Source: a virus
Virus record (IMG/VR): IMGVR_UViG_3300020463_000082
Coordinates: 1-30,947 of that record
Length of the DNA: 30,947 nt
Strand: one strand, 5' to 3'
This document shows, one piece after another, positions 16,516 through 30,947 of this stretch (its first letter is position 1; every line of letters starts with the position of its first letter). The translations under genes and the position numbers were made by a program. The notes below the pieces were generated by a model. That model ran no database searches. It was not told the DNA's origin and saw only the letters and a program-made list of their open reading frames with translations.

Positions 16516-16533
16516 CATTAAATGGAAAGAGCT

Positions 16534-17136: not shown

Positions 17137-17146
17137 GGAATAAGAA

Positions 17147-18058
17147 ATGCCATATACAATAGATTATAGTCAAAGTAGTAAAACAGCAATAGTTGTTAAT
17201 GACGGTACAATAGATACTAGTACGAGTATTGGACTTATAGGTAAAAACTATACTCGTTTTGGTGAAATACTAAATGAAAACATGTTGCACTTGTTGGAAA
17301 ATTTTTCTAACACAACTGCTCCAACAAATCCAACTGAAGGACAACTTTGGTATGATACAGCTAACAGTCAACTTAAAATATACGATAATGGTGTGTGGTC
17401 AACTATACTTTCAGGTGCTGGGACAACAAAGATAGAATTTAGAAATAGAAAAGATACTGGCGGTAATTATCATAAAACAATAGAAATGATAGTTGATGCA
17501 AATATTGTCCACATAACTACAGATGATACTACAGCTTGGACACCTCATGCAGATGAAAAACTAGAGGATGGTGTAACAGCATTAAGCACACAGTTTCCGA
17601 GTATAGCGGCTGGTATTACTATGAATAATACTACAAACTATAAGTTTAGAGGTTTAGCTACTAGTGCAGAGTATGCTGACCTTGCTGAAAGATATGAAGC
17701 AGATGCAGAGTATGAAGCAGGTACAGTGGTTAAGCTAGGTGGTGACAAAGAAATTACTCAAACACTGCAAGTAGAAGATGATGATGTATTTGGAATCATT
17801 AGTACTAATCCAGGTTTTGAAATGAACGCAAGTGCAGGCACAGATGCTACACATCCTTTTGTAGCACTAGCAGGTAGAGTTCCATGTAAAGTAATTGGAA
17901 GAGTAGCTAAAGGTGATAGACTAATATCTAGTGCAATCCCAGGACATGCAGTAGCACACAAAGAGGTTCCGGGATGGACTGTAGTGATCGGAAGAGCATT
18001 AGAATCAAAAAATACAGACGAAGCTGGAACAATTGAAGTAGTTGTGGGAGCGAAGTAA
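17147..18058 (+). CDS. Tail-fibre-type structural protein
   Basis: 303 aa, preceded by AAGGAATAAGAA 10 bases after the previous stop. The N-terminal 90 residues contain LIGKNYTRFGEILNENMLHLLENF followed by GQLWYDTANSQLKIYDNGVW, the 'GqLWyDTtn...lkvyd' segment common in phage fibre proteins that begin with attachment repeats. The C-terminal half (from about 165) reads KFRGLATSAEYADLAERYEA, AEYEAGTVVKLGG, VFGIISTNPGF, then ALAGRVPCKVIG and KGDRLISS. This beta-rich fold recurs at the ends of phage fibres and appendages and resembles Peptidase_G2-like appendage domains, but no catalytic residues can be assigned. The DYAE-type segment is typical of a region just before a trimeric tip. It is likely part of the host-contact apparatus; no intramolecular-chaperone (S74) motif is visible. 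Confidence 0.65.
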   Translation: MPYTIDYSQSSKTAIVVNDGTIDTSTSIGLIGKNYTRFGEILNENMLHLLENFSNTTAPTNPTEGQLWYDTANSQLKIYDNGVWSTILSGAGTTKIEFRNRKDTGGNYHKTIEMIVDANIVHITTDDTTAWTPHADEKLEDGVTALSTQFPSIAAGITMNNTTNYKFRGLATSAEYADLAERYEADAEYEAGTVVKLGGDKEITQTLQVEDDDVFGIISTNPGFEMNASAGTDATHPFVALAGRVPCKVIGRVAKGDRLISSAIPGHAVAHKEVPGWTVVIGRALESKNTDEAGTIEVVVGAK

Positions 18059-19222
18059 ATGGCACAGTCCATTGGTGATTTAGCAACTAATGAGGATTAT
18101 AACCTTGTTGCTGTAGATGTTAATAAAATATTTGGCGACAAATATCCTACTGCCGCAGTCACCGATGCAAGTAGATTCAATACACATAAGTTTGGATGGG
18201 GTGCAGTAAATATTGCAGATGCACTTGTTGACGGAACGCTTATTACGGCAGTAAGACTACAAGACCTTGTAACAAGAACTAATATTAGTATTGATCATAC
18301 AGAAATAACAGATAGTGTTTTAGTTTTCGCAGTCCCTTCTAATAGAACATCTATTGCTTCCGGTACGCCTATTAGAGCAGAAGATCTCAATCTTATTCGT
18401 ACAAAAATCGGTCCAATTTTAATTAACAATAAACATGCTAGTATAGATGCTTTAAACGCAAGTGCAGTACCAGTAAATAGTACAGGTTATGGTCGAACAG
18501 CAACATGGGATCATCAGCTAAACGGCGAACATAAATTCAGTTGGGGAAGCTATAACAAAGCAAGATACTTTTTCAACGGTGGCGGACAGCTTAGAGTAAG
18601 TTTAAATATGGCAGGCGGTAGTACAGCAGGATACTATAACTGGAGTGATGTTATCAATGAAATGGGAGTATTAAATTTTAATTTTGATACTGTAACGCAA
18701 AGTGCGGCTATTACTGGTGGCACTAGTGCAGGTAAAGGTTTTTATGATCTCACTCAAAATTACGGTGATGGAACAGATACAAACACCGACGAAGGACTAT
18801 TGTTTACATCAAGTGGTGTTACAATAGGTAGAAAAGTTGGTACATATGGTAGCACATATGGATATGGATATGGTTATATCCAAGGAGAAGGAAATTATCC
18901 AGAATGGGCGGATCCAGCACAAGGCGGATATGGTTATGGTTACGGATATAGTGGTGTCTATGTAAGTGCCTACAGTGCTTATAGTACATATCAAAGCCTA
19001 CAATTTAAATTATACGGAAAATATATTGATAATGGCGCCGGAGTACAATTTAAAATTAGATTAGACGATACAACACATGCTAACGTAGTAGACGGAAGTA
19101 TTACACCAACCTGTAGTTACTTGATGCCTGACACATTAACTATTGGTACAACTAGCTTTGATGTAACACCAGCCCCTACTTTCGTAATAGTTAACGACTT
19201 CACAAGTACAGATGATAGCTAA
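18059..19222 (+). CDS. Tail fibre / adhesin protein with Gly-Tyr-rich tip
   Basis: 387 aa; the ATG directly abuts the previous TAA. The N-terminal domain (about 1-130) is helical/beta with RLQDLVTRTNISIDHTEITD and PIRAEDLNLIRTKIGPI. A central domain carries KARYFFNGGGQLRVSLNMAGG, a motif I recognise from fibre-type proteins of marine T4-like phages. Residues 261-311 are extremely Gly/Tyr-rich, with two YGYGYGY runs (267-273 and 291-297) separated by IQGEGNYPEWADPAQGG and followed by an alternating Ser/Ala/Tyr segment. The C-terminus returns to beta strands (FKLYGKYIDNGAGVQFKIR). Gly-rich motif tips form the receptor-binding loops of T2/T6 gp38-type adhesins, so this could be the contact surface. 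It is the last structural gene before the promoter region and accessory block. Confidence 0.65.
   Translation: MAQSIGDLATNEDYNLVAVDVNKIFGDKYPTAAVTDASRFNTHKFGWGAVNIADALVDGTLITAVRLQDLVTRTNISIDHTEITDSVLVFAVPSNRTSIASGTPIRAEDLNLIRTKIGPILINNKHASIDALNASAVPVNSTGYGRTATWDHQLNGEHKFSWGSYNKARYFFNGGGQLRVSLNMAGGSTAGYYNWSDVINEMGVLNFNFDTVTQSAAITGGTSAGKGFYDLTQNYGDGTDTNTDEGLLFTSSGVTIGRKVGTYGSTYGYGYGYIQGEGNYPEWADPAQGGYGYGYGYSGVYVSAYSAYSTYQSLQFKLYGKYIDNGAGVQFKIRLDDTTHANVVDGSITPTCSYLMPDTLTIGTTSFDVTPAPTFVIVNDFTSTDDS
18839..18991 (+). repeat. Gly/Tyr-rich low-complexity coding repeat
   Basis: In-frame TATGGN hexamer repeats (18857-18877 and 18929-18949) encode YGYGYGY twice inside a 51-residue Gly/Tyr/Ser segment of the fibre protein. 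Such short repeats can expand or shrink by slippage, which would alter an exposed loop. Confidence 0.7.
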
Positions 19223-19228
19223 AAACTG

Positions 19229-19258
19229 TTGACAAACCTCACATAAATAAGTTATAGT
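19229..19258 (+). promoter_or_regulatory. Composite promoter: sigma70-like -35/-10 enclosing a late box
   Basis: A consensus TTGACA at 19229-19234 is followed 18 bases later by TATAGT at 19253-19258, a good vegetative sigma70-type promoter. Between them, CATAAATA (19242-19249) matches the late-type box seen at 1277 and 16508. The region is the 63-base gap between the fibre gene and the accessory block, the largest non-coding gap in the window. The leader ends in an AGGAGAA ribosome site at 19272-19278. Early and late transcription of the downstream block is therefore plausible. Confidence 0.6.
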
Positions 19259-19285: not shown

Positions 19286-19633
19286 ATGGACGAGAGACTC
19301 GAGAAGGCTTTAGACTTTGCGAATTACAGAATTACACTAGGTAATCAGAAACGTACACTGAAACAGCGTACACAAGTATTACAAACTGTACATTACCAAA
19401 AAGGTGTGTTTTTTGCTGATGCAAATACTATCAGCTTTGCTAAAACATTAATAGATTACGGCAAAGATTCTGCTATTATCGTAGATACTAAAGAAAATCC
19501 TATCTCAATCGAAAATTTAAAAGACTTTTTAGAAACATTGCTTAGTGCTTATACAGAGGCAATGAATGAATACAAAGTACAATCAGATAAAATTAAAAAA
19601 GCTAGAAATATTAAAAGTTTGATGGATTGGTAA
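19286..19633 (+). CDS. Small conserved helical phage protein
   Basis: 115 aa with an AGGAGAA ribosome site 8 bases before the ATG. The sequence is almost entirely helical and charged: it opens with ERLEKALDFANYRITLGNQK and ends with a Lys/Glu-rich helix (EAMNEYKVQSDKIKKARN). A middle segment (FADANTISFAKTLIDYGKDS, IIVDTKENPI) could be a small alpha/beta core. I recall similar short proteins next to structural genes in cyanophage genomes, annotated as hypothetical. It has no cysteine clusters, membrane segment or signal peptide. It is the first gene after the composite promoter and is separated from the first glycosyltransferase by 3 bases. Function unknown. Confidence 0.6.
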   Translation: MDERLEKALDFANYRITLGNQKRTLKQRTQVLQTVHYQKGVFFADANTISFAKTLIDYGKDSAIIVDTKENPISIENLKDFLETLLSAYTEAMNEYKVQSDKIKKARNIKSLMDW

Positions 19634-19636
19634 TAG

Positions 19637-20539
19637 ATGTCTAAGAAACAAGGAAATGGCATCTGTATGTTTGTGTATAATAACGATCAATTAGACTATA
19701 CAAGATTTGCAATTCTAGCCGCACAGTATGCTAAAAGATCAATGAACAACATAAGTGTTACTGCTATCACTGATGATGGTACTTTAGGCTGGATGCAAGA
19801 CGCACACGGTGATGCTATGGTAGATAAATCTTTTGACAATATTGTCATTGATAATGTTACACATGAACAAAATATGCGTAAGCATATGGATAGTCCTTGG
19901 ACTGAATTTAATGCACAATTTCATAACAGTAACAAACACGATGTACATAAACTCACACCATATGAACGTACACTGTTGATAGATACCGATTACCTACTAA
20001 TGAATAACGACTATGCTTATTTGTTCGACAGTGATGTAAATGTTGGAATGCATAGATACGCTGTATATCTTGGAGGTGATGCACCTTATAGAAATGAAGT
20101 AAGTTTAAATGATGCGGGTATAAATCATTGGTGGAGTACAGTTGTATATTTTGATCAAAGTGATGAAAGCAAAATGTTTTTTGACATATGGAGTCATGTT
20201 AAAGATAATTGGGAATACTACAGTTTATTGTATCAATTTCCAAAACAGTTATTTAGAACAGACTTTTGTGTAAGTGTTGCTTCACATATGATGAACGGCA
20301 TGAATAATGGAGATACTATACACGACTTTTGTAATTGGCCTTTAATTAATATGGATCAAAAAGATGACATTGCAAAAGTTAATGATTATGCTGATGTTGT
20401 TTTTATTAAACATGATAGAAAAGAACAATGGAAAAATATATTGGTCAGACAACAAAAACAAAATTTACATGTAATGAATAAACGTGCCTTGGATAGGCAC
20501 TATGATGATTTTTTAAGCAAACTGGAACAACATGTCTGA
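19637..20539 (+). CDS. GT-A-fold glycosyltransferase, GT8-like (first of a tandem pair)
   Basis: 300 aa. The N-terminus CMFVYNNDQLDYTRFAILAAQYAK resembles the nucleotide-sugar-binding strand and helix of GT-A enzymes. The metal-binding DxD is D116-T-D118 in PYERTLLIDTDYLL, in the 'y.r.lyiDtD.l' setting typical of GT8-like proteins. Further on are WWSTVVYFDQSDESKMFFDIW (acceptor-side strand and helix) and a C-terminal DVVFIKHDRKEQWK. It probably transfers a sugar from a nucleotide sugar to an unknown acceptor in the cytoplasm. The next gene overlaps it by 8 bases and encodes a protein of the same length and layout, so the two look like diverged paralogues. Donor and acceptor cannot be read from the sequence. 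Confidence 0.65.
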   Translation: MSKKQGNGICMFVYNNDQLDYTRFAILAAQYAKRSMNNISVTAITDDGTLGWMQDAHGDAMVDKSFDNIVIDNVTHEQNMRKHMDSPWTEFNAQFHNSNKHDVHKLTPYERTLLIDTDYLLMNNDYAYLFDSDVNVGMHRYAVYLGGDAPYRNEVSLNDAGINHWWSTVVYFDQSDESKMFFDIWSHVKDNWEYYSLLYQFPKQLFRTDFCVSVASHMMNGMNNGDTIHDFCNWPLINMDQKDDIAKVNDYADVVFIKHDRKEQWKNILVRQQKQNLHVMNKRALDRHYDDFLSKLEQHV

Positions 20540-21410
20540 GTCAGAAAAAAGAGGATACATTACACTAGGTATCAATACAGAAGAAGATAACATAAGATAT
20601 TGCTATGCACTAGCACTTAGTATTAAAGCATGTGATCCAGGTGCTAGTGTTACTCTTGTTGTGGACAAAGGTCAACTAGGTAATGTGCAGACTTTTTATG
20701 AACATGCATTTGATTACATGATCGAATTGCCATATGGTAATAGTGCTCACAAAGATGGCTTTCATGGCATGAATCTTTGGCAGATATATCATTGTACTCC
20801 TTATGAAGAAACAATTTATCTTGATTATGATACACTATTTTTAAATGTTGATATGTTTAACCTTTGGAAAATAATGGCAAATGATCACATTAGTATGCCT
20901 AATAATGCTTTTACATATAGACATTGGGACGTACCGATAGGATGGCGTTTTGAGTTTGAGTTGCAGTATAATTTACCAAAACAATTTAGTAACATAATAT
21001 ATTTCAACAAAAACAGTACACTTGCTGAAGAATGGTTTAAAATGTGTGACCCAGTTTTTCAAAATTGGAGGCAAGTTTACAGCAAAATTTTTACAGATAA
21101 AAAACCAGAAGTATTCGACAAAAATATCTTGTCTAACATGGTAACACATTTTTTAGACGCAGAGAAAGATATAGGTATACGTTTAAGTAATCATTTTGAT
21201 TTACATGCTCTGAGTCATGGCGCATTTCCTGGTCGTGAACAAGTTCCTGAACATTGGACGGACATGATGAATTATTGGGTTACTGACGAAGGAAAAATAC
21301 AAATAGAGAACAGTATAATCAACGGTGGAATTATTCACTATAGTGATGAAACTTTTTTAACAGATGAAATAATCGATGTCTTCAAATCTAAAGCTACTAA
21401 GAGAGTATAG
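20532..21410 (+). CDS. GT-A-fold glycosyltransferase, GT8-like (second of the pair)
   Basis: 292 aa; the ATG lies 8 bases inside the preceding gene. It starts with a GT-A-like strand (GYITLGINTEEDNIRYCYALA) and SVTLVVDKGQLGNV. The metal-binding DxD is D98-Y-D100 in YEETIYLDYDTLFL, followed by a helix and the LPKQFSNIIYFNKNSTLAEEWF segment. A C-terminal GGIIHYSDETFL resembles the 'HY.g..KPW' acceptor/donor loop of GT8 enzymes. Overall order matches the previous gene, including LPKQ versus FPKQ in the middle, supporting ancient duplication. It could decorate virion fibres, host surface polymers or a small molecule; nothing in the sequence decides. Confidence 0.65.
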   Translation: MSESEKRGYITLGINTEEDNIRYCYALALSIKACDPGASVTLVVDKGQLGNVQTFYEHAFDYMIELPYGNSAHKDGFHGMNLWQIYHCTPYEETIYLDYDTLFLNVDMFNLWKIMANDHISMPNNAFTYRHWDVPIGWRFEFELQYNLPKQFSNIIYFNKNSTLAEEWFKMCDPVFQNWRQVYSKIFTDKKPEVFDKNILSNMVTHFLDAEKDIGIRLSNHFDLHALSHGAFPGREQVPEHWTDMMNYWVTDEGKIQIENSIINGGIIHYSDETFLTDEIIDVFKSKATKRV

Positions 21411-22407
21411 CAAAGAACAAAAGAGTGCAAGATGGCATGTCTATTATGAAATAGATACTGGAGATGTTGTCACGGTAACAAACAAAGAAAAAGAATTTAT
21501 CTCACATCCTTTTATTATTAGTGATGATGACAATGCGAGAAAAATTTTAATGGGGCATCTTGATCCAAAAAAATTTGCAGTAGTAGACATCAATGCTGAA
21601 CTTAAACTAGTTGAAAAATCTGCGGTTATAAGAATTAAATCAGCAGAAAATAAACTTAGTATTGTCCCAACCTCAAAATTAAAAGCAGATGTAAACATAA
21701 TATTTTATGCTAACAACTGGAAAATGGAAGTTAATTTTAATCAAGATACTCTTTATAGAATGACCGGAAAAAGATTTTTTCGTAACATCAGTGTAAATCC
21801 AGAAAGTGATGCTGGATATGATAAAATTAATTTGTATCTAATCAAAAACAATGATCCCAATTATCTTGTCAAGACTATTGAGATAGATCCTGCAGAACTA
21901 ATTGAAGAAGGATATATTCTATTTGATATGACACCGTTACGTCGAATTTGTAATCTAACTGACGTCACAGTAATGACAAGAAAGATCTTTAAAAGCTATA
22001 GAACCGAAAAACGTGCAAACTTTACTGGTGTAGATTATAGAACACGTTTTACAAAACGTAGAACTTATGCAATACCAACTCCATTAAATACAGAAATAAG
22101 CAGTGATTTTACAATCTTTCAGAGAAATGGAATACAGTTTTTGCAAAGCAATTTTAAAAACCCACAAGATCAAAAGATATATACTGACATAGGAATTTAT
22201 TTGACTGATCCTAAAAATCCTAATAATCTGCTTGGTACACTAACTCTTCCTTTGAAGGACATAGGGTGGGAAAGTGTAATTGAGCTTGATACAGATATAG
22301 ACTTATTACAATGCGGATTTTTATGTAGAGAATCTAGCAATGATTTAACTTTTGATTTTATAGAAAACATGGAGTCAACACATGGCCAACTTACAACCGC
22401 TAACTGA
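21376..22407 (+). CDS. Conserved-looking protein of unknown function
   Basis: 343 aa; not recognised. The ATG at 21376 lies 35 bases inside the preceding glycosyltransferase; no better in-frame start exists before the Met at residue 59, so translation is probably coupled. The sequence looks beta-rich and soluble, with many alternating strands (VYYEIDTGDVVTVTNKE, AVIRIKSAENKLSIV, VNIIFYANNWKMEVNF). A half-repeat-like pattern is visible: KINLYLIKNNDPNYLVKTIEI with DMTPLRRICN in the first half, and DIGIYLTDPKNPNNLLGTLTL with LPLKDIGWESVIELD in the second. No catalytic motif, signal peptide or membrane segment is present. It sits between glycosyltransferases, so it may be a virion component that becomes modified or a binding partner. 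This is speculation. Confidence 0.6.
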   Translation: MSSNLKLLREYSKEQKSARWHVYYEIDTGDVVTVTNKEKEFISHPFIISDDDNARKILMGHLDPKKFAVVDINAELKLVEKSAVIRIKSAENKLSIVPTSKLKADVNIIFYANNWKMEVNFNQDTLYRMTGKRFFRNISVNPESDAGYDKINLYLIKNNDPNYLVKTIEIDPAELIEEGYILFDMTPLRRICNLTDVTVMTRKIFKSYRTEKRANFTGVDYRTRFTKRRTYAIPTPLNTEISSDFTIFQRNGIQFLQSNFKNPQDQKIYTDIGIYLTDPKNPNNLLGTLTLPLKDIGWESVIELDTDIDLLQCGFLCRESSNDLTFDFIENMESTHGQLTTAN

Positions 22408-23362
22408 ATTTGACATAGTATTCATAAGCTATGACGAACCTAATGCAGAATCGAATTATGCAGACCTACTAGATAAATGTCCTTGGGCAAAACGAAGTCA
22501 CGGAGTATGGGGTAGCGATGCCGCACACAAAGCGGCGGCGGCCCTGAGTGAAACTGATAGGTTTATTACTGTAGATGCAGATAATATCGTAAGAGAAGAG
22601 TTCTTCAATGCACAAATTGATGTAAGTAGAATAAGACCTACTGATGTGATAAGTTGGGCAGGTAAAAATGAAGTTAACGGTTTAGTATACGGCAATGGTG
22701 GTATAAAGTGTTGGCCCGTAGATGTTGTTAATAGAATGCGTACACATGAAGCGGCTCCAGAAAGTGATAAAGCGAGTCAGGTTGACTTTTGTTGGAATAT
22801 TCGTTACATACAAATGAACAATGTGTATTGTGATGTTATGAATAACGGTAGTCCATTACAAGCATGGAGAGCAGGCTTCCGTGAAGGGGTCAAAATGGGA
22901 TTGGAAGGCGGAGATGTTGTTGATCCTAAGAATTTAAAGCGTATACATCAGGAAAACTATAAAAGACTTTTAGTTTGGATGACAGTAGGTGAAGATACTA
23001 TAAATGGACTGTGGGCAATGTATGGTGCAAGATTAGGCTGTCATATGACCAATATCGAAAGGCGTACTTGGGACTGGCGAAATGTTAGAGACTTTGATTG
23101 GTTAAGTAATTTCTTTAAAACAGAATTGTTTCCTGAATTTGAAGGTGGTGATCAAATGTGCGTAAATACTGGTGTAAGTTGGGATTACGACAAACTCAAA
23201 AATAAAACTGTAGAATTAGGAGAAGATCTTCGTGGCAAGTTGGATTTGGAAATTAGTGACTTGGATTGGACTGGCAGTAGATTCTTTAAGAAAGTATATA
23301 AGAATCCACACAGACTTGGTGCTATGGTGAGAGAAGATCAAGTTGACGATAGTATTGAATAA
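22382..23362 (+). CDS. Putative glycosyltransferase (marine phage family)
   Basis: 326 aa, starting 26 bases inside the previous gene after an ATGGAGTC ribosome site. The N-terminus FDIVFISYDEPNAESNYADL followed by CPWAKRSHGVWGSDAAHKAA and a DRFITVDADNIV segment (DxD D65-A-D67) is a layout I recall from proteins annotated as glycosyltransferases in T4-like cyanophages. The 'GsdaAhn.g...a..d.i..lDaDn.v' pattern is that of GT-A (GT2-like) enzymes. The C-terminal half is rich in Trp and charged residues (LWAMYGARLGCHMTNIERRTW, then RNVRDFDWLSNFF). It is unlike the two GT8-like neighbours, so the block holds at least two glycosyltransferase types. Acceptor unknown. Confidence 0.65.
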   Translation: MANLQPLTEFDIVFISYDEPNAESNYADLLDKCPWAKRSHGVWGSDAAHKAAAALSETDRFITVDADNIVREEFFNAQIDVSRIRPTDVISWAGKNEVNGLVYGNGGIKCWPVDVVNRMRTHEAAPESDKASQVDFCWNIRYIQMNNVYCDVMNNGSPLQAWRAGFREGVKMGLEGGDVVDPKNLKRIHQENYKRLLVWMTVGEDTINGLWAMYGARLGCHMTNIERRTWDWRNVRDFDWLSNFFKTELFPEFEGGDQMCVNTGVSWDYDKLKNKTVELGEDLRGKLDLEISDLDWTGSRFFKKVYKNPHRLGAMVREDQVDDSIE

Positions 23363-24497
23363 AACATGCAAGTTAGCAAGTTACGGATATGATCAAAGAC
23401 ACAATGGTGCATGTTGCTGGATTAAAGATGCTGACGGTAATAAGCCCAGGCAAAGTAAAACAACTACTGCAAAAAAATACTTACATTCATCATTTATAAA
23501 ACAAGTTAGACAAGCATTAGAAAACGGAATAGAGCATCCTGCATGTGAAAAATGTTGGGTCGATGAATCACAAGGAAAAATAAGTAAAAGAATAGGTATA
23601 GAAGAAAATAACTACATTGATTGGCATGCTAATGCTAGTATAGGAGAGTTAGTTTACCTTACTCTGTTTGTTGGTAACAAATGTAATCTTGCTTGTAGAA
23701 CTTGCGGAGCTCATAGTAGTACAGGTTGGTTTAAAGAACACAAAGTTATACAAGACAGTTCTGACAAACAGCAACCAGGATTTGAAGATGGTATTAATTT
23801 AAAACCTTTTGATGCTTCTGATATTGATGTACCACTAGATAAACTACAGTATTTAGAAGTGTTAGGCGGTGAACCATTTTATGAGTTGGAACATGTAAAG
23901 TTCATTGAACGGATCTGTAGAGAAGCAGATCCTAAAAATGTTTCTTTGTTTTACAGTACTAATGGAACTAAAACTATTAGTCCAGATATTGAACAAATGT
24001 TTAGTAGGTTCAAAAAAATAATTATAAGTTTTAGTATCGATGCAGTGTACAAGCCTTTTGAATACATAAGAACATTAGGACAATGGGAAGAAGTTGAAAG
24101 AACTATAAGCTATTGGAAAAGTCAACCCAATGTGCAAATACAAAATCATGCAACTATGAGTGTTCTTAATATCATGTACATTACTGATCTATACAACTAT
24201 TTTAAAGAAAAACAAGATTTTGCTGATTGGCAACTGTCATACACATATGCAGAATATCCTCCACAGTACAATTACAATGTAATGAGTGAAGATATTAAAG
24301 AAAAATATTACAATGATATCTTATCCAGCACACAGTTTGGCATGCATACTAAAAGCATACAAAATTATTTTTCTAATAGTAAATTTAACAAACAAAACTA
24401 TGACTTTTTCCTAAAACAATTAGAATATACAAGTACAATAAGAAAACTTAACATTCAAGATTATCTACCTAAACTTTGTGAGATACTTGAATTATGA
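23343..24497 (+). CDS. Radical SAM protein with N-terminal Cys cluster region (rSAM 1)
   Basis: 384 aa. No ATG is available near the start; TTG at 23343, with GAGAGAAG upstream and a 20-base overlap with the previous gene, is the best choice. The radical SAM motif CNLACRTC (C114, C118, C121; CxxxCxxC) binds the [4Fe-4S] cluster that cleaves S-adenosylmethionine, and LGGEPF (GGEP 175-178) is the SAM-amine motif. Before the core are C9, C24/C25, C68 and C71 (ACEKCWVDE), spaced for a second cluster. This matches the family annotated as twitch-domain radical SAM proteins with the auxiliary domain at the N-terminus, common in marine phages. Such auxiliary clusters often bind peptide substrates in SPASM/twitch enzymes. 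It ends with ATGA shared with the next gene. Substrate unknown. Confidence 0.8.
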   Translation: MTIVLNKTCKLASYGYDQRHNGACCWIKDADGNKPRQSKTTTAKKYLHSSFIKQVRQALENGIEHPACEKCWVDESQGKISKRIGIEENNYIDWHANASIGELVYLTLFVGNKCNLACRTCGAHSSTGWFKEHKVIQDSSDKQQPGFEDGINLKPFDASDIDVPLDKLQYLEVLGGEPFYELEHVKFIERICREADPKNVSLFYSTNGTKTISPDIEQMFSRFKKIIISFSIDAVYKPFEYIRTLGQWEEVERTISYWKSQPNVQIQNHATMSVLNIMYITDLYNYFKEKQDFADWQLSYTYAEYPPQYNYNVMSEDIKEKYYNDILSSTQFGMHTKSIQNYFSNSKFNKQNYDFFLKQLEYTSTIRKLNIQDYLPKLCEILEL

Positions 24498-25279
24498 AAC
24501 AGAAACTTTGGATATTCGGCGACAGCTTCGCTGATAGAAAATTAACACACCTACACTTGAATCCTATTAGTGGCAAGCCTCCTATATATTTTGAAGGCTG
24601 GAGTTATTGGCTTGAAAATGATTATGAAGTAGAAAATTTTGCACAAAGTGGTATAGGTGCAGACACTTGTTTCTTAGAATTAACTAATAAAGTAGACAAC
24701 GAAACACACGACCTTGAAAATATTAGTGTGGTATTTGTATTTCCAGAAGCCTTAAGTAGAGTAAAATTAACAGGATATGAAAAGCATAAAAGTTGGACGT
24801 TTCCTTTTCATGCATATGACAGAGAACAATATAGTAAGATTCTTATGGATGCTAATTTAAATAAAGGTCAAGCGGAGAGATATAGTAATTATGACAAGTA
24901 TCATGAGTTTGTAAAAGTATTTTTAACAGATTATATAGAAACAGATGAATATCAAAATAAGACCAATACACTGTTAAGTGCTTTAGATTGTTACGCCAAT
25001 CACTTTAAAAGATTTATGTTATTACCTGCTAATAATATTTCAGGTAATACTAAAAACAAGAAAGCAAATCATTTCAAAAACATGACGATTAGAGAAGATA
25101 TTAGTCTTTATAAACTAGCAGATCAAGGCGAGTTGCCTAATGATGAAATGTTTAAATTACTAAGAGCCAGAGGCAGTAATATAAATGTCAATGATCCAAG
25201 AATGCTATACCCAAATCATTTAGACCACAAGCATAACAAAATAGTATATGATATTATTAAAGATTTTATGGAAACTTGA
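24494..25279 (+). CDS. SGNH/GDSL-like hydrolase (first of a tandem pair)
   Basis: 261 aa; the ATG overlaps the previous stop (ATGA). The N-terminal strand KLWIFGDSFAD carries the block I GDS with nucleophile Ser11. A GIGAD segment (about residue 55) fits the block II glycine. The C-terminal MLYPNHLDHKHN provides conserved His242 and a D244-x-x-H247 spacing like block V. A block III Asn is not obvious. SGNH enzymes are esterases or acyltransferases; glycan O-deacetylases are frequent among phage and polysaccharide-locus members. With no signal peptide it would act in the cytoplasm or within the virion. It is followed one base after its stop by a clear paralogue and sits between radical SAM genes, so it may act on the same product. 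Confidence 0.7.
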   Translation: MKQKLWIFGDSFADRKLTHLHLNPISGKPPIYFEGWSYWLENDYEVENFAQSGIGADTCFLELTNKVDNETHDLENISVVFVFPEALSRVKLTGYEKHKSWTFPFHAYDREQYSKILMDANLNKGQAERYSNYDKYHEFVKVFLTDYIETDEYQNKTNTLLSALDCYANHFKRFMLLPANNISGNTKNKKANHFKNMTIREDISLYKLADQGELPNDEMFKLLRARGSNINVNDPRMLYPNHLDHKHNKIVYDIIKDFMET

Positions 25280-25280
25280 T

Positions 25281-26219
25281 ATGAAACAGAAACTTTGGAT
25301 ATTTGGTGATAGCTTTGCAGATAGAAGAACAAATTACCGTGAGTACGTCAAAAACAGACCCACAGACGTAATAGAAGATTGTAAATTCAAAGAATTGGGC
25401 CGTGCTGATCCTGTTGATATAGATATGTTAGACTACACATCGACTTATGTAGGATCTCCGCATTATCTTACTGATACAGAAGTAATAACATGGGAAGGGT
25501 GGAGTTATTTTCTTGAAGATGATTATGATGTAGAAAATTTTGCAACAGCTGGAATAGGTGGTGACACTTGTTTTTTAAGACTAACACAGCAAGTAGATGA
25601 GGTAAACAAATTCACAGGTGATAGGGTATCAGGATATCCTCCACTACAAGAAGTAAGTGTAGTTTTTATTTTAGCAGATATAATAAACAGAGTACCATTA
25701 ACAGGCTATAAGGATAACCAACAATGGAGTTTTTTGTTTAACACATATCCGAGAAAAGAATACAATGAAATTATGGGAAATTTATCTCAGTTTCACGCCG
25801 TTGCTGATAAAGTCGATACCTATTCAAAATACAATAAATTTGCAGAGACTTTTTTAATGGATCATATGGAAACAGATGAATACAAAAATCGAGTAAAGTT
25901 ATTTTTAGGTGCATTAGATCACTATGCTGGTTTTTTTAAAAATTTTATTTGTATACCGGTTGGCAATTATGAAGCTCATTGGCAAGGTTGGAGCACTAAC
26001 CACAAATTTCATAATATGCAATACAGAGAAGACTTACAACTTGAAACATTGTCAGCTAAAAGTGAAATGCCAAATAAATTATATCAGTGGATATTTAACT
26101 ATAGTAAGAGGAATAGCAAATATCAAAGACCAAAACATTTATATCCTAATCATTTAGATTCTAAATACAATGGCAAGATATATAACGAAATAAAACAATG
26201 GATGGAAACAAGTGGCTAG
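25281..26219 (+). CDS. SGNH/GDSL-like hydrolase (second of the pair)
   Basis: 312 aa from the ATG at 25281, chosen over an upstream in-frame ATG at 25248 because residues 1-14 (MKQKLWIFGDSFAD) repeat the start of the preceding gene exactly. Ser11 is the predicted nucleophile. Shared landmarks include EGWSY, ENFA..GIG.DTCFL, RVPLTGY and YPNHLD near the end (His291). An insertion of about 40 residues after residue 15 and another near 110 explain the greater length. The first copy's D-x-x-H is D-S-K-Y here, so the conserved His of NHLD is more likely catalytic, or this copy has changed activity. Its last bases overlap the GTG start of the next radical SAM gene by 8. Confidence 0.7.
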   Translation: MKQKLWIFGDSFADRRTNYREYVKNRPTDVIEDCKFKELGRADPVDIDMLDYTSTYVGSPHYLTDTEVITWEGWSYFLEDDYDVENFATAGIGGDTCFLRLTQQVDEVNKFTGDRVSGYPPLQEVSVVFILADIINRVPLTGYKDNQQWSFLFNTYPRKEYNEIMGNLSQFHAVADKVDTYSKYNKFAETFLMDHMETDEYKNRVKLFLGALDHYAGFFKNFICIPVGNYEAHWQGWSTNHKFHNMQYREDLQLETLSAKSEMPNKLYQWIFNYSKRNSKYQRPKHLYPNHLDSKYNGKIYNEIKQWMETSG

Positions 26220-27618
26220 AAAACAATTAGAAGATGAACTAAATGAAACAAGAGACTTGCTTAACAGCATAAGTCCTAGCTTCTGTTTAGCCAAATGGAT
26301 GCAACATACATTATACCTACAAAATGGTATGAATCACAGTTGCCATCATCCACCTACACATAAAATACCAGTTGAAGAAGTAATTGCTAATCCTAAAGCA
26401 CTACACAATACAAAATTTAAAAAACAACAAATGCAAAAGATGCTAAATGGCGAGCGTCCTAAAGAATGCGATTACTGTTGGCGTGTAGAAGATCGAGGTG
26501 ACAAGTATTTCAGTGATAGAACATACAAAAGTCAAACCAGTTGGGCTATGCCTTACATTTATGATGTAATGGAAAAAGGTGCTGATGAAGATATAGAACC
26601 AAGCTACTTGGAGATTAGTTTTAGTAACGTATGTAACTTAAAATGTGCATATTGTAGTCCTGATCTCAGCAGTAAGTGGATGGAAGAAATAAACCAACAT
26701 GGCGAATATCCAACACACTTCAAACACAATAACTTAGAAGCACAGCGTGATATGGGAAGAATGCCCATACCTAAAAAAGATCCAAATCCATATGTAGATG
26801 CTTTTTGGAAATGGTGGCCTTCTGTATATCCAAGATTGCATACACTTAGGCTAACAGGTGGTGAGCCGCTTATGAGTAAAGACTGTTGGAAAGTACTAGA
26901 AGCTATCAGAGATAACCCAAGGGAAGATTTAGTTCTAGCTGTAAACACTAACTTAGATGTTGAGCCAAAGTTACTAGAGAGATTTGTCAAATTAGCTAAA
27001 GAGATAGGCCCAAACATTAAAGAATTTCAAATTTTCACCAGTGGCGAAAGTACAGGCGCGGCGGCTGAATATGCTCGTTATGGCTTAGATTATGATAGAT
27101 GGTATGCAAACTGTGATTGGATACTCAGCGAACTGTACGGCGAGTTTAAAATGGTGTTTGCATTCATGACAACAGTTAATATACTCAGCGTTGGAACGTA
27201 TGATCTGTTTATTAAAGATGTGCTTAAATTAAGAGCTAAGTACATTAAACACAAAGATGATGGAAATCTGTTGCCTTGTATGACAAACTTTCTGCGTTAT
27301 CCTAATTTCCTTGCAATTTGTAATTTAGACGACGAAACTAAAGCTGAAGTGGAAAGAAAAATTATAGACGTAGCTGAAAAATATCAAGTTGGAACTACCA
27401 AGGATACTGGATTTTTGTGGTTAGAAGAAATTAATCAGTTGGAAAGATTATTAGCATTCATGGAAGATGATAGTATCGGAAACTTAGACATGAATAGAAG
27501 CGACTTTTGGAAATATTTTGATGAATACGATAAGCGTAAAAAAATTAGCTTTTGGGATACCTTTCCTGACCTACACAACTATTATGAAATATGTAAGACA
27601 ACGACCTATGCAGGATAA
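26212..27618 (+). CDS. Radical SAM protein with N-terminal Cys cluster region (rSAM 2, CHHP type)
   Basis: 468 aa from GTG at 26212, with GGATGGAAA upstream; no ATG fits. The radical SAM motif CNLKCAYC has C141, C145 and C148, and LTGGEPL (GGEP 216-219) is the SAM-binding motif. The N-terminal region holds C25 (FCLAKW), C44 in SCHHPPTH, and C86/C89 in ECDYCWRVED, again four Cys suited to a second [4Fe-4S] cluster. After the core come a TIM-barrel-like series of strands (LVLAVNTNL, IKEFQIFTSGEST, FAFMTTVNIL) and a helical C-terminus ending KKISFWDTFPDL. The next gene is a close paralogue. Expected role: radical modification of a peptide, protein or small molecule, with the auxiliary cluster helping to bind substrate. 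The substrate is not indicated. Confidence 0.82.
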   Translation: MARKQLEDELNETRDLLNSISPSFCLAKWMQHTLYLQNGMNHSCHHPPTHKIPVEEVIANPKALHNTKFKKQQMQKMLNGERPKECDYCWRVEDRGDKYFSDRTYKSQTSWAMPYIYDVMEKGADEDIEPSYLEISFSNVCNLKCAYCSPDLSSKWMEEINQHGEYPTHFKHNNLEAQRDMGRMPIPKKDPNPYVDAFWKWWPSVYPRLHTLRLTGGEPLMSKDCWKVLEAIRDNPREDLVLAVNTNLDVEPKLLERFVKLAKEIGPNIKEFQIFTSGESTGAAAEYARYGLDYDRWYANCDWILSELYGEFKMVFAFMTTVNILSVGTYDLFIKDVLKLRAKYIKHKDDGNLLPCMTNFLRYPNFLAICNLDDETKAEVERKIIDVAEKYQVGTTKDTGFLWLEEINQLERLLAFMEDDSIGNLDMNRSDFWKYFDEYDKRKKISFWDTFPDLHNYYEICKTTTYAG

Positions 27619-27620
27619 TT

Positions 27621-28976
27621 ATGAAACATAAAGAACTACAAAAAGTTAAAGACCAAGTAAACAAAGTAGGTTGCGGATTTTGCGCCGCCAAATGGTATAA
27701 CAGTACTATATGGTTAAGCAATGGCAGAACAGCCAGTTGTCATCATCCAGAAGCACACTACATTCCGCCAAGAGAAGTGTTTAAAAATTACAAAGCATTG
27801 CATAATACAGAATTTAAAAAGCAACGTAGAAAAGAAATGTTGGAAGGCAAACGCCCAGAAGAATGCACATATTGTTGGGTAGTTGAAGATGCAGAACCAG
27901 ATGCTATGAGTGATAGAGTTTTTAAGAGTAGCATCTACACACCTGAAGAAATAGAAGCAATCAAAGAAATTGGTTGGGACGAAGATGTAAATCCAAAAAC
28001 ATTAGAAATAAGTTTTGATAATTTATGTAATCTAAGTTGTAGCTATTGTAATCCTGAGTTTAGTACAACATGGGCCAATGATATCAAAACAAATGGCATA
28101 TACGAAAATATGAAAACAGCAGGCGGAGGTGCATATCAGAATGATGGAGATCACGCATACAGCTTTGGACTTAAAGGCGGCGATGGTAACTTGTTTACCA
28201 AAGCATTTTTTAAGTGGTTTGACAATGGGTTAAAAGAAGATCTACAAGAACTAAGAGTCACCGGAGGAGAACCTACTCGCAGTCCTGATTTTTGGAAGCT
28301 GGTAGATAAGTGTGAAGGTGAAAAATTTAATTTTGCTATAAACAGTAATCTTATTCTTGCAGACAATATGATGCAAAAGTTAATTGATGCAAGTAAAAAA
28401 TTTGAGACATTTGATTTGTATACCAGTTGTGAAACAGCAGGAAAACATGCAGAACTTATAAGGCATGGCTTTAAATATGATATGTGGAGAAAGAATCTTA
28501 TACGTTTTGCTAAAGAAGGTGAATATAGACACATGAGTATAATGATGACTATTAGTAATCTTACACTGTTTAGTATTACAGATTTCTTTGATGATATTAT
28601 TGATCTCAAAAGAGAATTTAGTAACAAAGCATTGTTTCACATGACCTTAAACATATTGCGTTTTCCTAGTTTCCAAAGTGTAACACTGTTACCAGATTAT
28701 ATTAAAGAAGAACGTGTAGAACATTTAACAATGTGGCTAGATACATTTGGTAGTTTTCTTACTGATAGTGAAAAAGCACACATACAGAGATTAATAACTT
28801 ATATTCAAAAAATTGAGAAATCATTAGAAGATACAGATACAACAGAAGATAAACAAGCAGACTTTGTAAACTTTTTTAGTAACTATACCAAACGTAGAAA
28901 TATTGACATTGTGGAAACAATAGACAATGATGGGTTTACAAAGTGGTGGGGGGAAATGAATGCAGAACGGCTCTAA
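27621..28976 (+). CDS. Radical SAM protein with N-terminal Cys cluster region (rSAM 3, CHHP type)
   Basis: 451 aa; ATG two bases after the previous stop, with AGGA upstream. It parallels rSAM 2 throughout: FCAAKW (C21), SCHHPEAH (C40), KALHNTEFKKQRRKEMLEGK, ECTYCWVVED (C82, C85) and SDRVFKS, then radical SAM CNLSCSYC (C136, C140, C143) and VTGGEPT (GGEP 215-218). The strand FNFAINSNL and FDLYTSCETAG match LVLAVNTNL and FQIFTSGESTG of rSAM 2. C18 is an extra Cys not shared with the paralogue. Differences are concentrated between the CxxxCxxC motif and GGEP, where this copy has a Gly-rich insertion (TAGGGAYQNDGDHAY), which could change the substrate pocket. The next start lies 17 bases inside its end. 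Confidence 0.82.
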   Translation: MKHKELQKVKDQVNKVGCGFCAAKWYNSTIWLSNGRTASCHHPEAHYIPPREVFKNYKALHNTEFKKQRRKEMLEGKRPEECTYCWVVEDAEPDAMSDRVFKSSIYTPEEIEAIKEIGWDEDVNPKTLEISFDNLCNLSCSYCNPEFSTTWANDIKTNGIYENMKTAGGGAYQNDGDHAYSFGLKGGDGNLFTKAFFKWFDNGLKEDLQELRVTGGEPTRSPDFWKLVDKCEGEKFNFAINSNLILADNMMQKLIDASKKFETFDLYTSCETAGKHAELIRHGFKYDMWRKNLIRFAKEGEYRHMSIMMTISNLTLFSITDFFDDIIDLKREFSNKALFHMTLNILRFPSFQSVTLLPDYIKEERVEHLTMWLDTFGSFLTDSEKAHIQRLITYIQKIEKSLEDTDTTEDKQADFVNFFSNYTKRRNIDIVETIDNDGFTKWWGEMNAERL

Positions 28977-30282
28977 CAAAGATCCAAGCAAAAGTTTTTG
29001 TATCATTCCATGGATACATTTAAACACATGGCCCAACGGTAGTGTGTTCCAATGCTGTATTACAGATTGGCGAAATGTTATAGGTGATCTTAAAAAAGAA
29101 AGTTTGGAACAAGTCTTTAACAATGAATACATGCGTGACCTAAGAAAAGATTTACTCAAAGGTGAATTTCCTAAAAGTTGTACAAAATGTTACGAACAAG
29201 AACACATGGGCATTACTAGTTTTAGACAGAATGCAAATAGACAATTCAATGAACACATTGCAAATATAGATAAAAAAACAGATGATAACGGGCATGTAGA
29301 TGATGTAAAATTACACTATTGGGATTTTAGATTTAGTAATCTATGCAATATGAAATGTAGAATGTGTGGTGGACATCTGAGTAGTTTGTGGAATGCAGAT
29401 GAGAAAGCAATCTACGGCGAAGCAAGTGAAAGTGCAAAAGGTGGTGTTGTAAACACCAAAGACCTCAGCGTAGATAACTTGTATGAATTACTAGAGTATC
29501 ACATGGACCATGTAGAAGAAATATATTTTGCAGGTGGTGAACCACTTATTATGGACGAACACTATTATATTTTAGAAAAACTTATTGAAAAGAAAAAATT
29601 TGATGTAAGAATTAGATACAATACAAATTTACTTAAATTAAAATTTAAAAAGTGGGATAACATAGAACTATGGAAACACTTTGAACATGTTAATGTTCTT
29701 GCTAGTTTAGACAGTATGGATGCAAGAGGAGAGTATGTACGCAAAGGTACAGTGTGGTCAACCATTGAAAAAAATGTTGATAGAGTTATGGAGGCTGTTA
29801 ATGCAAGACATATTATGTTTAGTATTAGTCCTACAATTAATTTGTTCAATGTAAAAACCACACCAGAGTTTGTAGATTGGCTTATGGGTAAAGGACTTAA
29901 CATGGAAAGAATACACCTTAATAATGTACTTACAAATCCATCATGGTATCATGTTAACATATTACAAGAAAGTGACAAGCAAGAAATAATAGAAAAGTTT
30001 CACAAACACGTTGATACAGTTCCTGAAGATCAAAGAAGTAACTTGCGTGGCAAATATGATTCAATTGTTGATTATCTAAATGCAATGAGACAGGTAGACG
30101 GTGGAGATGCAGGTCCTATGAGTGATGAACAGCTAAGTTGGAATCTTTCGAAGTTCTATCAAGTAACAGATCTATTAGATAAACACAGAAAAGAAAATTT
30201 CTTAGATGTGTTTCCAGAACTTGAAAGTTTTTATCTCAAAGCAAAGCAAGAGCATTGGAACCGGAAGCACGATGGCAGTTAG
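28960..30282 (+). CDS. Radical SAM protein with N-terminal twitch-like region (rSAM 4, CC type)
   Basis: 440 aa; the ATG lies inside the end of the previous gene after a strong GGGGGGA ribosome site. The N-terminus FCIIPWIHLNTWPNGSVFQCC (C14, C32, C33) and SCTKCYEQE (C74, C77) closely resembles the C..PW..l...p.G....CC pattern of SPASM/twitch auxiliary-cluster domains, here placed before the core. The radical SAM motif CNMKCRMC (C129, C133, C136) is followed by FAGGEPLIMDEHY (GGEP 192-195), then VRIRYNTNLLKL and VNVLASLDSMDARGEYVRKG (barrel strands). A C-terminal helical region ends LDVFPELESFY. It is a paralogue of the next, incomplete gene and more distant from rSAM 2 and 3. Its substrate may be a peptide, as for SPASM/twitch maturases, but no precursor gene was identified. 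Confidence 0.83.
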   Translation: MQNGSNKDPSKSFCIIPWIHLNTWPNGSVFQCCITDWRNVIGDLKKESLEQVFNNEYMRDLRKDLLKGEFPKSCTKCYEQEHMGITSFRQNANRQFNEHIANIDKKTDDNGHVDDVKLHYWDFRFSNLCNMKCRMCGGHLSSLWNADEKAIYGEASESAKGGVVNTKDLSVDNLYELLEYHMDHVEEIYFAGGEPLIMDEHYYILEKLIEKKKFDVRIRYNTNLLKLKFKKWDNIELWKHFEHVNVLASLDSMDARGEYVRKGTVWSTIEKNVDRVMEAVNARHIMFSISPTINLFNVKTTPEFVDWLMGKGLNMERIHLNNVLTNPSWYHVNILQESDKQEIIEKFHKHVDTVPEDQRSNLRGKYDSIVDYLNAMRQVDGGDAGPMSDEQLSWNLSKFYQVTDLLDKHRKENFLDVFPELESFYLKAKQEHWNRKHDGS

Positions 30283-30947
30283 TGAAACATTTTGTGTTCT
30301 CCCTTGGCTTCACCTTCATTTTTGGCCTGATGGCAAAGTACATCATTGTTGTTTAGGTAGTAACAGTTATCCAATGGGACATCTTGAACAAGGATCTCCA
30401 AACGAACTTATTAACAGTGATAGATATAAAAAACTTAGGTTACAATTACTAAACAACGAAAAACCCAAATCCTGTCTACAATGTTTTGAAAGAGAAAATC
30501 ATGGTGCAGTAAGTATGCGTCAGCACCATAACGAAGTGTGGGCAAAAGAAATACCACATGTATTGGAAAACACAGACCATACAGGCTTTGTAAAGGATTT
30601 TAAATTTAAGTACTGGGACTTTAGATTCAGTAACTTGTGTAACATGAAATGTAGAATGTGCGGAACCACATTCAGCAGTCAATGGTTTGATGATGAAGTA
30701 AAACTTTCTGAAAAAGGATTACGAGGAAAACCTAGTACAACTAAACGTGTAAACAACTCACAAGATACAAGTTCAGTAGATTTAAAGAGTTGGGTTGAAA
30801 GCAAAATCAATGAAGTTGAATATTGTTATTTTGCAGGTGGCGAACCATTAATAATGGAAGAGCATTACTACATTTTAAAAAAGCTAATAGACGCCAAAAG
30901 AACAGATGTAAGAATAAGGTACAATACAAATTTATTGAAATTAAACT
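30272..30947 (+). CDS. Radical SAM protein with N-terminal twitch-like region (rSAM 5, partial)
   Basis: Incomplete: 225 codons from the ATG at 30272 to the window end, with the frame open. The start overlaps the previous gene by 11 bases. Residues FCVLPWLHLHFWPDGKVHHCC (C8, C26, C27), SCLQCFERENHG (C68, C71) and YWDFRFSNLCNMKCRMCG (C123, C127, C130) match rSAM 4 nearly word for word. YCYFAGGEPLIMEEHYYILK (GGEP 189-192) and VRIRYNTNLLKL also match, so the pair arose by tandem duplication. The variable part is between the Cys motif and GGEP. The remaining barrel and C-terminus lie beyond the window, so the accessory block continues further. Confidence 0.82.
   Translation, partial: MAVSETFCVLPWLHLHFWPDGKVHHCCLGSNSYPMGHLEQGSPNELINSDRYKKLRLQLLNNEKPKSCLQCFERENHGAVSMRQHHNEVWAKEIPHVLENTDHTGFVKDFKFKYWDFRFSNLCNMKCRMCGTTFSSQWFDDEVKLSEKGLRGKPSTTKRVNNSQDTSSVDLKSWVESKINEVEYCYFAGGEPLIMEEHYYILKKLIDAKRTDVRIRYNTNLLKLN

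Follow-up and report, generated by a model that had tools for sequence, protein, structure and literature searches.

What a phage builds with ten predicted enzymes encoded directly behind its fibre genes, and on which surface the product is placed, are the questions raised by a stretch of 30,947 nucleotides from a marine virus of bacteria (the window; positions 1 to 30,947 of IMG/VR record IMGVR_UViG_3300020463_000082). An earlier note on this DNA had recognised three glycosyltransferases (GTs), two SGNH hydrolases and five radical SAM (rSAM) enzymes next to the fibres, a gene content that has since been confirmed by motifs, profiles and a structural model of the third glycosyltransferase, GTc, with the two hydrolases as putative SGNH-like proteins. 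We consider it probable that these genes encode a glycan pathway, and we tentatively favour a serotype-like glycan-decoration locus whose acceptor would be a protein encoded in the fibre region of the phage itself, which looks like a viral version of the strain-specific sugar-coat genes of bacteria.

From 19637 to the end of the window there are 11 open reading frames on the plus strand, which as called overlap by 4-77 nt or are separated by gaps of at most 3 nt; together they encode three GT-A-type glycosyltransferases, the beta-sandwich protein U343, two SGNH-like proteins and five rSAM enzymes, the last of which (R5) runs off the window end. The single overlapping unit described earlier is retained, with its start moved to 19286 and a promoter of its own. 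Its ten probable enzymes also stand, but U343 (21376-22407) had been missed and does not have an enzymatic fold, and the rSAM genes do not lie five in a row, the actual order being R1, S1, S2, R2-R5.

16522..19222, plus strand: fibre block, a near-constant neighbour of the GT core across loci
16522-17136, plus strand: F204, phrog_11259
17147-18058, plus strand: F303, Peptidase_G2/IMC-like
18059-19222, plus strand: F387, with Tyr-Gly repeats
19229..19258, plus strand: predicted sigma70-type promoter, TTGACA-N18-TATAGT, serving the u115-led operon
19242-19249, plus strand: T4-late-like CATAAATA, inside the promoter spacer
19286..19633, plus strand: u115, 115 aa, function not assigned, opens the operon
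19637..20539, plus strand: GTa, predicted GT8-like glycosyltransferase, DxD invariant
20532..21410, plus strand: GTb, paralogue of GTa
21376..22407, plus strand: U343, tandem beta-sandwich (Ig/FN3-like), fast-evolving
22382..23362, plus strand: GTc, predicted GT-A-fold glycosyltransferase
23343..24497, plus strand: R1, predicted N-terminal-twitch rSAM enzyme, TTG start
24494..25279, plus strand: S1, putative SGNH-like protein, GDSFAD
25248..26219, plus strand: S2, putative SGNH-like protein, tandem paralogue of S1 (43% identity)
26212..27618, plus strand: R2, predicted N-terminal-twitch rSAM enzyme
27621..28976, plus strand: R3, predicted N-terminal-twitch rSAM enzyme
28960..30282, plus strand: R4, predicted N-terminal-twitch rSAM enzyme whose twitch matches that of BtrN
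30206..30947, plus strand: R5, predicted N-terminal-twitch rSAM enzyme, incomplete at the window end

Internal ATGs that would abolish the long overlaps place the probable start of S2 at 25281 and that of R5 at 30272. The dN/dS is below 0.28 for all genes that have a close homologue in either of two related contigs (L010 or L013), and all testable genes are under purifying selection. The source phage is read as a jumbo-type myovirus; the baseplate and F204 genes of the window match PA5oct/Atu_ph07-type jumbo phages, and a gp6 query matched PA5oct/GAP32-type jumbo phages. Homologous contigs also occur in metagenome-assembled genome (MAG) bins of Pelagibacter, Rickettsiales, Rhodobacteraceae, Verrucomicrobia and Betaproteobacteria, and these are probably mis-binned phage.

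The promoter bears directly on the choice of acceptor. By its sequence signals the operon starts at 19286 with u115, i.e. before the first GT, from its own sigma70-type promoter; the strict promoter pattern is present 5' of u115 in 50 of 56 relatives, compared with 0/144 positions ahead of F204, F303 or F387 and 0.3% of shuffles, while a TATAAATA motif is found at 16508, ahead of F204. Such a promoter suggests transcription by the host polymerase, possibly early, which would suit modification of the host as well as, or better than, modification of the virion. The fibres, which had been named among the targets, are not supported as such: unlike the fibre genes, the operon has a sigma70-type promoter of its own, so that the target may instead lie in the host envelope. 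The corresponding alternative, in which the same glycan pathway alters LPS or capsule sugars during infection and so excludes competitors or prevents re-adsorption of new virions, is one we hold possible while doubting it. It is favoured by the contrast between the sigma70-type promoter and the late-type motif of the fibre genes, by the combination of GT8 and nucleotide-sugar genes that is typical of O-antigen synthesis, and by the published interpretation of pelagimyophage GT clusters in host-recognition regions (PMC7029224) and of jumbo cyanophage sugar clusters (PMC7824862); on the other hand, in most loci the promoter region also contains the CATAAATA late-like motif, and the link to the fibres is constant across divergent phages.

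This constancy was established across 80 related viral loci, in which the arrangement fibres - u115 - GTa - GTb - U343 - GTc does not vary and 244 rSAM genes lie 3' of GTc against none 5' of it. The order fibre, GT, rSAM was found in 39/39 scorable loci, and rSAM genes are present in 50 of the 51 non-redundant loci (those with at least 5 kb downstream), although the loci belong to related phages and their co-occurrence partly reflects shared ancestry. In a reverse scan with rSAM alone, using an alignment that came from the linked loci, the GT core was recovered in 58 of 74 new loci.

Behind this constant part, gene content turns over. Phage pairs with GTc 85-90% identical have 7% of cassette genes in common; one pair (L062/L066, GTc 91.5%) has none in common, whereas another (L040/L072, GTc 63%, fibres 27% identical) has half of the cassette in common, and some distant phages have most cassette genes in common. 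Cassette type does not follow fibre sequence, which argues against a fibre-specific fit. Taken together, these comparisons indicate that the downstream block is exchanged at a fixed site behind a constant GT core. Movement of the genes independently of one another and of the fibres, which the earlier note would have held against a cassette, was seen for individual cassette genes only, and for neither the rSAM class nor the GT core. Its proposal of a sugar or surface-decoration pathway beside the fibres is reinforced by the uniform gene order, by this turnover at a fixed site and by the sugar genes of the variable block.

The cassettes almost always have several N-terminal-twitch rSAM genes and often SGNH-like ones. 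In longer relatives the number of rSAM hits on a single contig reaches 19, and nucleotide-sugar, SIS-isomerase, carbamoyl- and amidinotransferase genes are added. Among the cassettes are a cytidylyltransferase with MannoseP_isomer, an epimerase, UDP-sugar dehydrogenase, DegT, TylF and PMM, carbamoyltransferase genes cluster in 35/77 loci and amidinotransferase genes in 23/77, and the near relative L010 holds Ribul_P_3_epim, NTP_transf_3, SIS, CTP_transf_like and carbamoyltransferase. A putative sulfotransferase (L265:14146-14868), picked by eye from its P-loop, was not confirmed. The window unit has no predicted membrane protein, and among 561 cassette proteins 8 are so predicted; this near absence means that no flippase or polymerase is present as a complete envelope-polysaccharide system would need, and the lack of a flippase or of an acyltransferase-3 type protein weighs against a host-envelope acceptor. 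Serotype conversion of the gtr type (gtrABC-like), which relies on a membrane flippase and membrane glucosyltransferases, was likewise rejected, as no protein of the window unit has a predicted membrane segment.

Phage glycosyltransferases can also act on DNA, and thymidylate synthase, Thy1 or DHFR domains occur in some cassettes, which would be the material for a hypermodification of phage DNA bases by the GTs and rSAM enzymes. We give this scant credence: the window unit has no domain of a base hydroxylase or kinase or of an altered thymidylate synthase, no other base-hydroxylating or base-activating gene was recognised in the window, the locus lies in the fibre region away from replication genes, and its cassettes turn over extensively beside a constant GT core.

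The three GTs had no match naming a glycosyltransferase in Pfam, PHROG or NCBIfam. GTa and GTb are probably GT8-like glycosyltransferases, as suggested by an invariant D116-D118 and a weak profile match to glycogenin (GT8, E 0.002). GTc, which ranks with the most conserved genes here and is without a match in annotated phage records, has an invariant D65-D67 and an AlphaFold model (pLDDT 85) for which GT-A enzymes, among them TarS, TarP and BcsA, give the strongest structural matches, so that motif and model point to a GT-A-fold glycosyltransferase. Between them lies U343, which by fold is not an enzyme and consists of tandem Ig/FN3-like beta sandwiches; no sequence family supporting it was found, and it is a possible acceptor or virion/adaptor protein. 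For u115, neither a family match nor a match among annotated phage records was obtained.

All five rSAM proteins contain the Pfam Radical_SAM domain, CxxxCxxC, GGEP and four N-terminal cysteines, features of which CxxxCxxC is found in 100% and the four cysteines in 98% of 185 sequences. The full-length proteins exceed the curated cut-off of 170 bits for NF033640 (N_Twi_rSAM), with 247.9 (R1), 334 (R2), 287.5 (R3) and 416.6 bits (R4), while the incomplete R5 is assigned by its Pfam domains (SPASM and Radical_SAM) rather than by NCBIfam score. By motif and profile R1-R5 are thus members of one family, the N-terminal-twitch family NF033640, which is the best NCBIfam match; PapB, StsB and WgkB score far under the cut-off.

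SPASM/twitch rSAM enzymes often modify peptides, which raises the alternative that R1-R5 act in a RiPP-like manner on the fibres or on a hidden precursor and that the GTs glycosylate the product. Peptide S-glycosyltransferases SunS and ThuS are among the Foldseek matches of GTc, and at the equivalent site cultured rhizobial jumbo phages have peptide-maturase-related rSAM genes and a protein ending CHxSCHxSCH. This explanation is nevertheless improbable, since the twitch is N-terminal with BtrN as its best match, sugar-nucleotide genes are present in the cassettes, and a pattern search of the marine loci found neither a Cys/His/Ser-rich tail nor an HxS repeat or similar motif, and no RiPP-type precursor with a repeated modifiable core. 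The Tyr-Gly repeats of F387 were rejected as rSAM target: many loci with rSAM genes have short repeats or none, their length being considerable in some loci and 2-3 residues in others with full cassettes. Neighbourhoods of bacterial rSAM homologues were too mixed to guide the choice of substrate (TPR, GT2, GDSL and many others), and the lack of a consistent position beside sugar genes counts against the favoured glycan reading.

BtrN oxidises an aminocyclitol, and its likeness to the R4 twitch, together with a StrB1-similar amidinotransferase, carbamoyltransferase and a TylF-like methyltransferase, recalls aminoglycoside/macrolide tailoring. A released, antibiotic-like sugar or aminocyclitol-like metabolite, unattached to surfaces, could be made in this way, and an antibiotic-like product has been suggested for a jumbo cyanophage cluster (PMC7824862). 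We regard this as very unlikely here, where three GTs form the constant part of the locus, the link to the fibres is constant and no export gene was recognised.

S1 and S2 had no database match, including none to Pfam GDSL, and S1 found no match among viral contigs. Their GDS is invariant, the DxxH is non-canonical (PNHLD), the Ser is often Cys in relatives, and iterated profiles link them with a phage family of 126 members (GDS/GCS...N...H type); on motif and profiles they are putative SGNH-like proteins. The templates picked for an hhalign comparison with candidate GDSL neighbours held no real SGNH protein.

Under the favoured reading of a glycan-decoration locus, the constant GTs would transfer a glycan to, or lengthen one on, an acceptor that is itself constant, and the swapped cassette would make and edit its variable outer sugars. 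In this regard, the rSAM enzymes, with their BtrN-like twitch, may perform radical oxidation, epimerisation, deoxygenation or C-C chemistry on sugars, and the SGNH-like proteins may add or remove acyl groups. With less support, the acceptor could be U343, F387 or F303, giving a strain-specific sugar coat of the virion. More speculative, and in our judgement doubtful, is that phages own an O-antigen-like polymorphic locus, in which a constant fibre-linked GT operon and rSAM-rich cassettes coat the fibres with carbamoylated, amidinated or other exotic sugars and so create phage serotypes. If the favoured reading is true, the genomes of large, uncultured phages from aquatic habitats include a polymorphic locus for sugar decoration that is organised like a bacterial capsule locus (constant flank, swapped centre); dozens of unexplained viral rSAM genes would gain a function, one tied to adsorption or exclusion, and would be a large new source of radical enzymes for sugar tailoring.

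The locus had been called undescribed, a claim that has to be narrowed, as rSAM genes with GTs (PMC7029224) and an exchangeable five-rSAM module (PMC2853527) precede it. Clusters of rSAM and GT genes in phage host-recognition regions were already known, and what appears to be new, from gene comparison, is the constant GT core with exchangeable rSAM cassettes. The pelagimyophage host recognition cluster, which lies between VrlC and gp14, likewise follows baseplate/fibre genes as a hypervariable island and includes GT8-type GTs, and two related genomes differ by rSAM cassettes (PMC7029224); the consulted portion of that report describes no fixed u115-GTa-GTb-U343-GTc core, own promoter, serial rSAM expansion or cassette-exchange analysis, and pelagimyophages are T4-like (PMC7029224) whereas the window genes match PA5oct/Atu_ph07-type jumbo phages. 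Jumbo cyanophage clusters, polymorphic between relatives, contain epimerases, cupin isomerases, nucleotidyltransferases, GTs, carbamoyltransferases and 2OG oxygenases (PMC7824862); the portion consulted describes no fixed fibre-linked GT core, and radical SAM or SPASM is not mentioned in that report. In mycobacteriophage-type virion glycosylation a virion protein is glycosylated and a GT gene stands beside virion genes, the latter being the arrangement here as well.

In Agrobacterium phage Atu_ph07 and Sinorhizobium phage Phosso, homologues of the baseplate, the giant protein, F204 and the IMC fibre precede 3-5 rSAM genes, but these rSAM genes are of other families, the GT core was not found in them and a candidate CHxS-tailed substrate is present. 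Campylobacter phages CP220/CPt10 (PMC2853527; FN667788 CPT_0080-0089) have one swapped block of five rSAM, an amidinotransferase and two nucleotide-sugar-transferase-like genes, a module interpreted there as raising host metabolism; its rSAM proteins fall outside the N-terminal-twitch family, with a best E of 7e-9 that stays below cut-off, and in the FN667788 stretch examined no fibre genes stand immediately before the block. The cultured Vibrio phages K566/K567, in which no GTa, GTb, GTc, u115 or U343 homologues were found, have six NF033640-family hits, two of them above the cut-off, beside GT8-like and GT4-like genes. Although not orthologous, K566 and CP220 put the question of rSAM enzymes acting together with GTs within reach of culture.

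Eleven open reading frames occupy positions 19637-30947, all on the + strand and either overlapping or separated by at most 3 nt, and an earlier note on this DNA had listed three glycosyltransferases (here GTa, GTb and GTc) while leaving out U343, a fast-evolving protein between GTb and GTc that is modelled as tandem Ig/FN3-like beta sandwiches. None of the three enzymes has a match in Pfam, PHROGs or NCBIfam; the claim of three glycosyltransferases holds on a weak profile match of the paralogues GTa and GTb to glycogenin of family GT8 (E 0.002) and, for GTc, on an invariant DxD-like motif together with an AlphaFold model whose best structural matches are the GT-A enzymes TarS, TarP, BcsA, RmlT and SunS, with TM-scores so low (about 0.3) that GTc may be placed in GT-A at fold-class level only. 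Past GTc the gene order is R1, S1, S2 and R2-R5. The five radical SAM (rSAM) enzymes reported earlier, R1-R5, are indeed present, the four complete ones (R1-R4) scoring 248-417 bits against the N-terminal-twitch family NF033640 N_Twi_rSAM (cut-off 170 bits), but they do not stand in a row as had been stated, as S1 and S2 separate R1 from the others; the SGNH hydrolase label given to S1 and S2 is plausible but weak. R5, whose gene runs off the window end, shows both a SPASM and a Radical_SAM domain. All of R1-R5 carry four N-terminal cysteines as well as CxxxCxxC and GGEP, motifs that would in principle allow each to hold two 4Fe-4S clusters, one catalytic and the other auxiliary. Pairwise identity is 47% for R4/R5, 33% for R2/R3 and 17-23% for the remaining pairs, and the five are not recent copies of one another.

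A GTc query against IMG/VR returned 80 loci in which the order F3761-F204-F303-F387-u115-GTa-GTb-U343-GTc, with the fibre block F204-F387, is near-invariant even where F387 identity is 25%. In these loci 244 rSAM genes lie downstream of GTc (620 kb) and none upstream (700 kb), and of the 51 non-redundant loci that extend ≥5 kb past GTc, 50 contain rSAM. The reverse search, with an rSAM alignment as query, gave 77 further loci, and 74 were left once a duplicate and two loci from previously recovered contigs had been set aside; the GT core is present in 58 of these and fibre homologues in 39, and all 39 scorable loci keep the order fibre, GT, rSAM, counts to be read in the light of the relatedness of the phages and of a reverse query itself built from linked loci. 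In a second group of these loci, without a full U343, a ~355-aa protein and a carbamoyltransferase come after five rSAM genes. Contigs with the phage core u115-GTa-GTc-rSAM (L098, L100, L101, L107, L114, L128 and L129) come from bacterial MAGs binned as Pelagibacter, Rickettsiales, Rhodobacteraceae, Verrucomicrobia and Betaproteobacteria, and are probably phage contigs binned into MAGs. F387 (18059-19222) carries Tyr-Gly repeats at about residues 260-305, encoded by TATGGN units, whose length varies strongly (7 residues in the window, 18-20 in L013/L014 and 2-3 elsewhere).

The cassette downstream of GTc is exchanged. Counting genes as shared at ≥60% identity, pairs of loci with 85-90% identical GTc have a mean of 7% of cassette genes in common, and 88% of such pairs have none; L062 and L066 share no cassette gene, yet GTc is 91.5% and GTa 88% identical. 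Conversely, L040 and L072 have half of the cassette in common despite identities of 63% in GTc and 27% in F387, and L020 and L028 have 80% in common, up to 93% identical, with GTc at 77%. This arrangement, a constant flank with a swapped centre, is also that of O-antigen and capsule loci. Purifying selection (dN/dS <0.28) acts on those window-unit genes for which L010 or L013 has a close homologue.

With respect to chemistry, sequence past R5 probably resembles the downstream part of L006, a near relative (R2 86%, R3 90%), which has additional rSAM genes, a ~340-aa protein and further enzymes. G013, on which L010 lies, goes on to encode Ribul_P_3_epim, an NTP_transf_3 protein, a SIS-domain isomerase, an APS-kinase-like protein, a CTP_transf_like protein, a carbamoyltransferase and a GTc paralogue, and its SIS and NTP-transferase set suggests a heptose-type sugar. 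Other islands encode cytidylyltransferases, UDP-sugar dehydrogenases, epimerases, DegT, TylF, C-methyltransferase and carbamoyltransferase domains; members of a carbamoyltransferase cluster occur in 35/77 reverse-set loci, and 23/77 have an amidinotransferase (AGAT E 1e-17, StrB1 E 9e-15). Among solved structures, the twitch of R4 comes closest to that of BtrN (E 5e-6), a butirosin enzyme that oxidises an aminocyclitol. Together with the sugar-type genes, this makes a sugar or sugar-like substrate our best guess and a fairly probable one, virion and host acceptors being counted together. The ~340-355-aa protein (L215:13644-14699, L006:15706-16731), found in 38/77 loci and mostly adjoining the last rSAM and carbamoyltransferase genes, has no match in Pfam or PDB. 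NF033640 matches number 19 on G011 (L176-L178), a single 66-kb phage fragment, 17 on G007, 15 on G004 and 14 on G013; the 11-12 rSAM proteins of CP220/CPt10 were reported as highly unusual (PMC2853527).

The operon opens in every case with u115 (19286-19633), which is small, conserved and without homologue among annotated phages, and is preceded by:

19229-19258, + strand: promoter TTGACA-N18-TATAGT, kept across relatives

The strict pattern stands upstream of u115 in 50/56 distinct relatives, against 0.3% in a shuffled control, and is absent from all 144 regions upstream of F204, F303 and F387, which argues for a GT-rSAM operon with a predicted promoter of its own; within the window alone the score is unexceptional (67 matches observed, 68 expected), and the evidence is conservation across relatives. 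The T4-late-like motif NATAAATA is found upstream of F204 in 22/42 loci and within the spacer of the u115 promoter in 42/56 relatives. This promoter is probably read by the host polymerase and perhaps also active late.

A promoter of this sigma70 type, along with precedent in the literature (PMC7029224, PMC7824862), favours the host envelope as glycan acceptor, which we regard as rather unlikely. Modification of virion proteins is our tentative reading, held at a little short of an even chance: the fibre linkage is fixed, the variable and non-enzymatic U343 sits inside the GT operon, and membrane proteins are nearly lacking, none being predicted in the window unit and very few in the cassettes. 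Cassette type does not track fibre sequence; this speaks against a fit to particular fibres, but leaves a generic acceptor as likely as before.

The baseplate and F204 genes place this phage with jumbo phages of the PA5oct/121Q/Atu_ph07 type. Within the stretches examined, no annotated rSAM gene adjoins the fibres in PA5oct, Salicola phage SCTP-2 or Vibrio phage 2.275.O; Atu_ph07 and Phosso resemble the window in having rSAM genes beside fibres, although the rSAM families differ. Among these genes, directly behind the fibres, lie those of Atu_ph07 gp170 (L094:13119-14009) and Phosso 289 (L090:5415-6335), proteins of ~300 aa that end with DFCHSSCHASCHNSRSRR and DYCHTSCHASCHSSRSRR, a tail pattern matched in the phage collection only by these two phages; both proteins, from phages in culture, are candidate RiPP-like substrates. 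In the cultured Vibrio phage K566 (L093:12001-21462), GT8-like and GT4-like genes are interspersed among four rSAM genes of NF033640 type. A search of open-access literature, which takes in no preprints and few subscription journals, gave no paper on a phage locus combining carbamoyltransferase, radical SAM and glycosyltransferase. The block of the cultured Campylobacter phage CP220 (L264, CPT_0080-0089) is alike in composition but unrelated: it combines five rSAM genes with an amidinotransferase and two nucleotide-sugar-transferase-like (GT-A-like) genes, and its exchange relative to CPt10 has been described (PMC2853527). In pelagimyophages the host recognition cluster carries rSAM cassettes as well as GT8 genes (PMC7029224).
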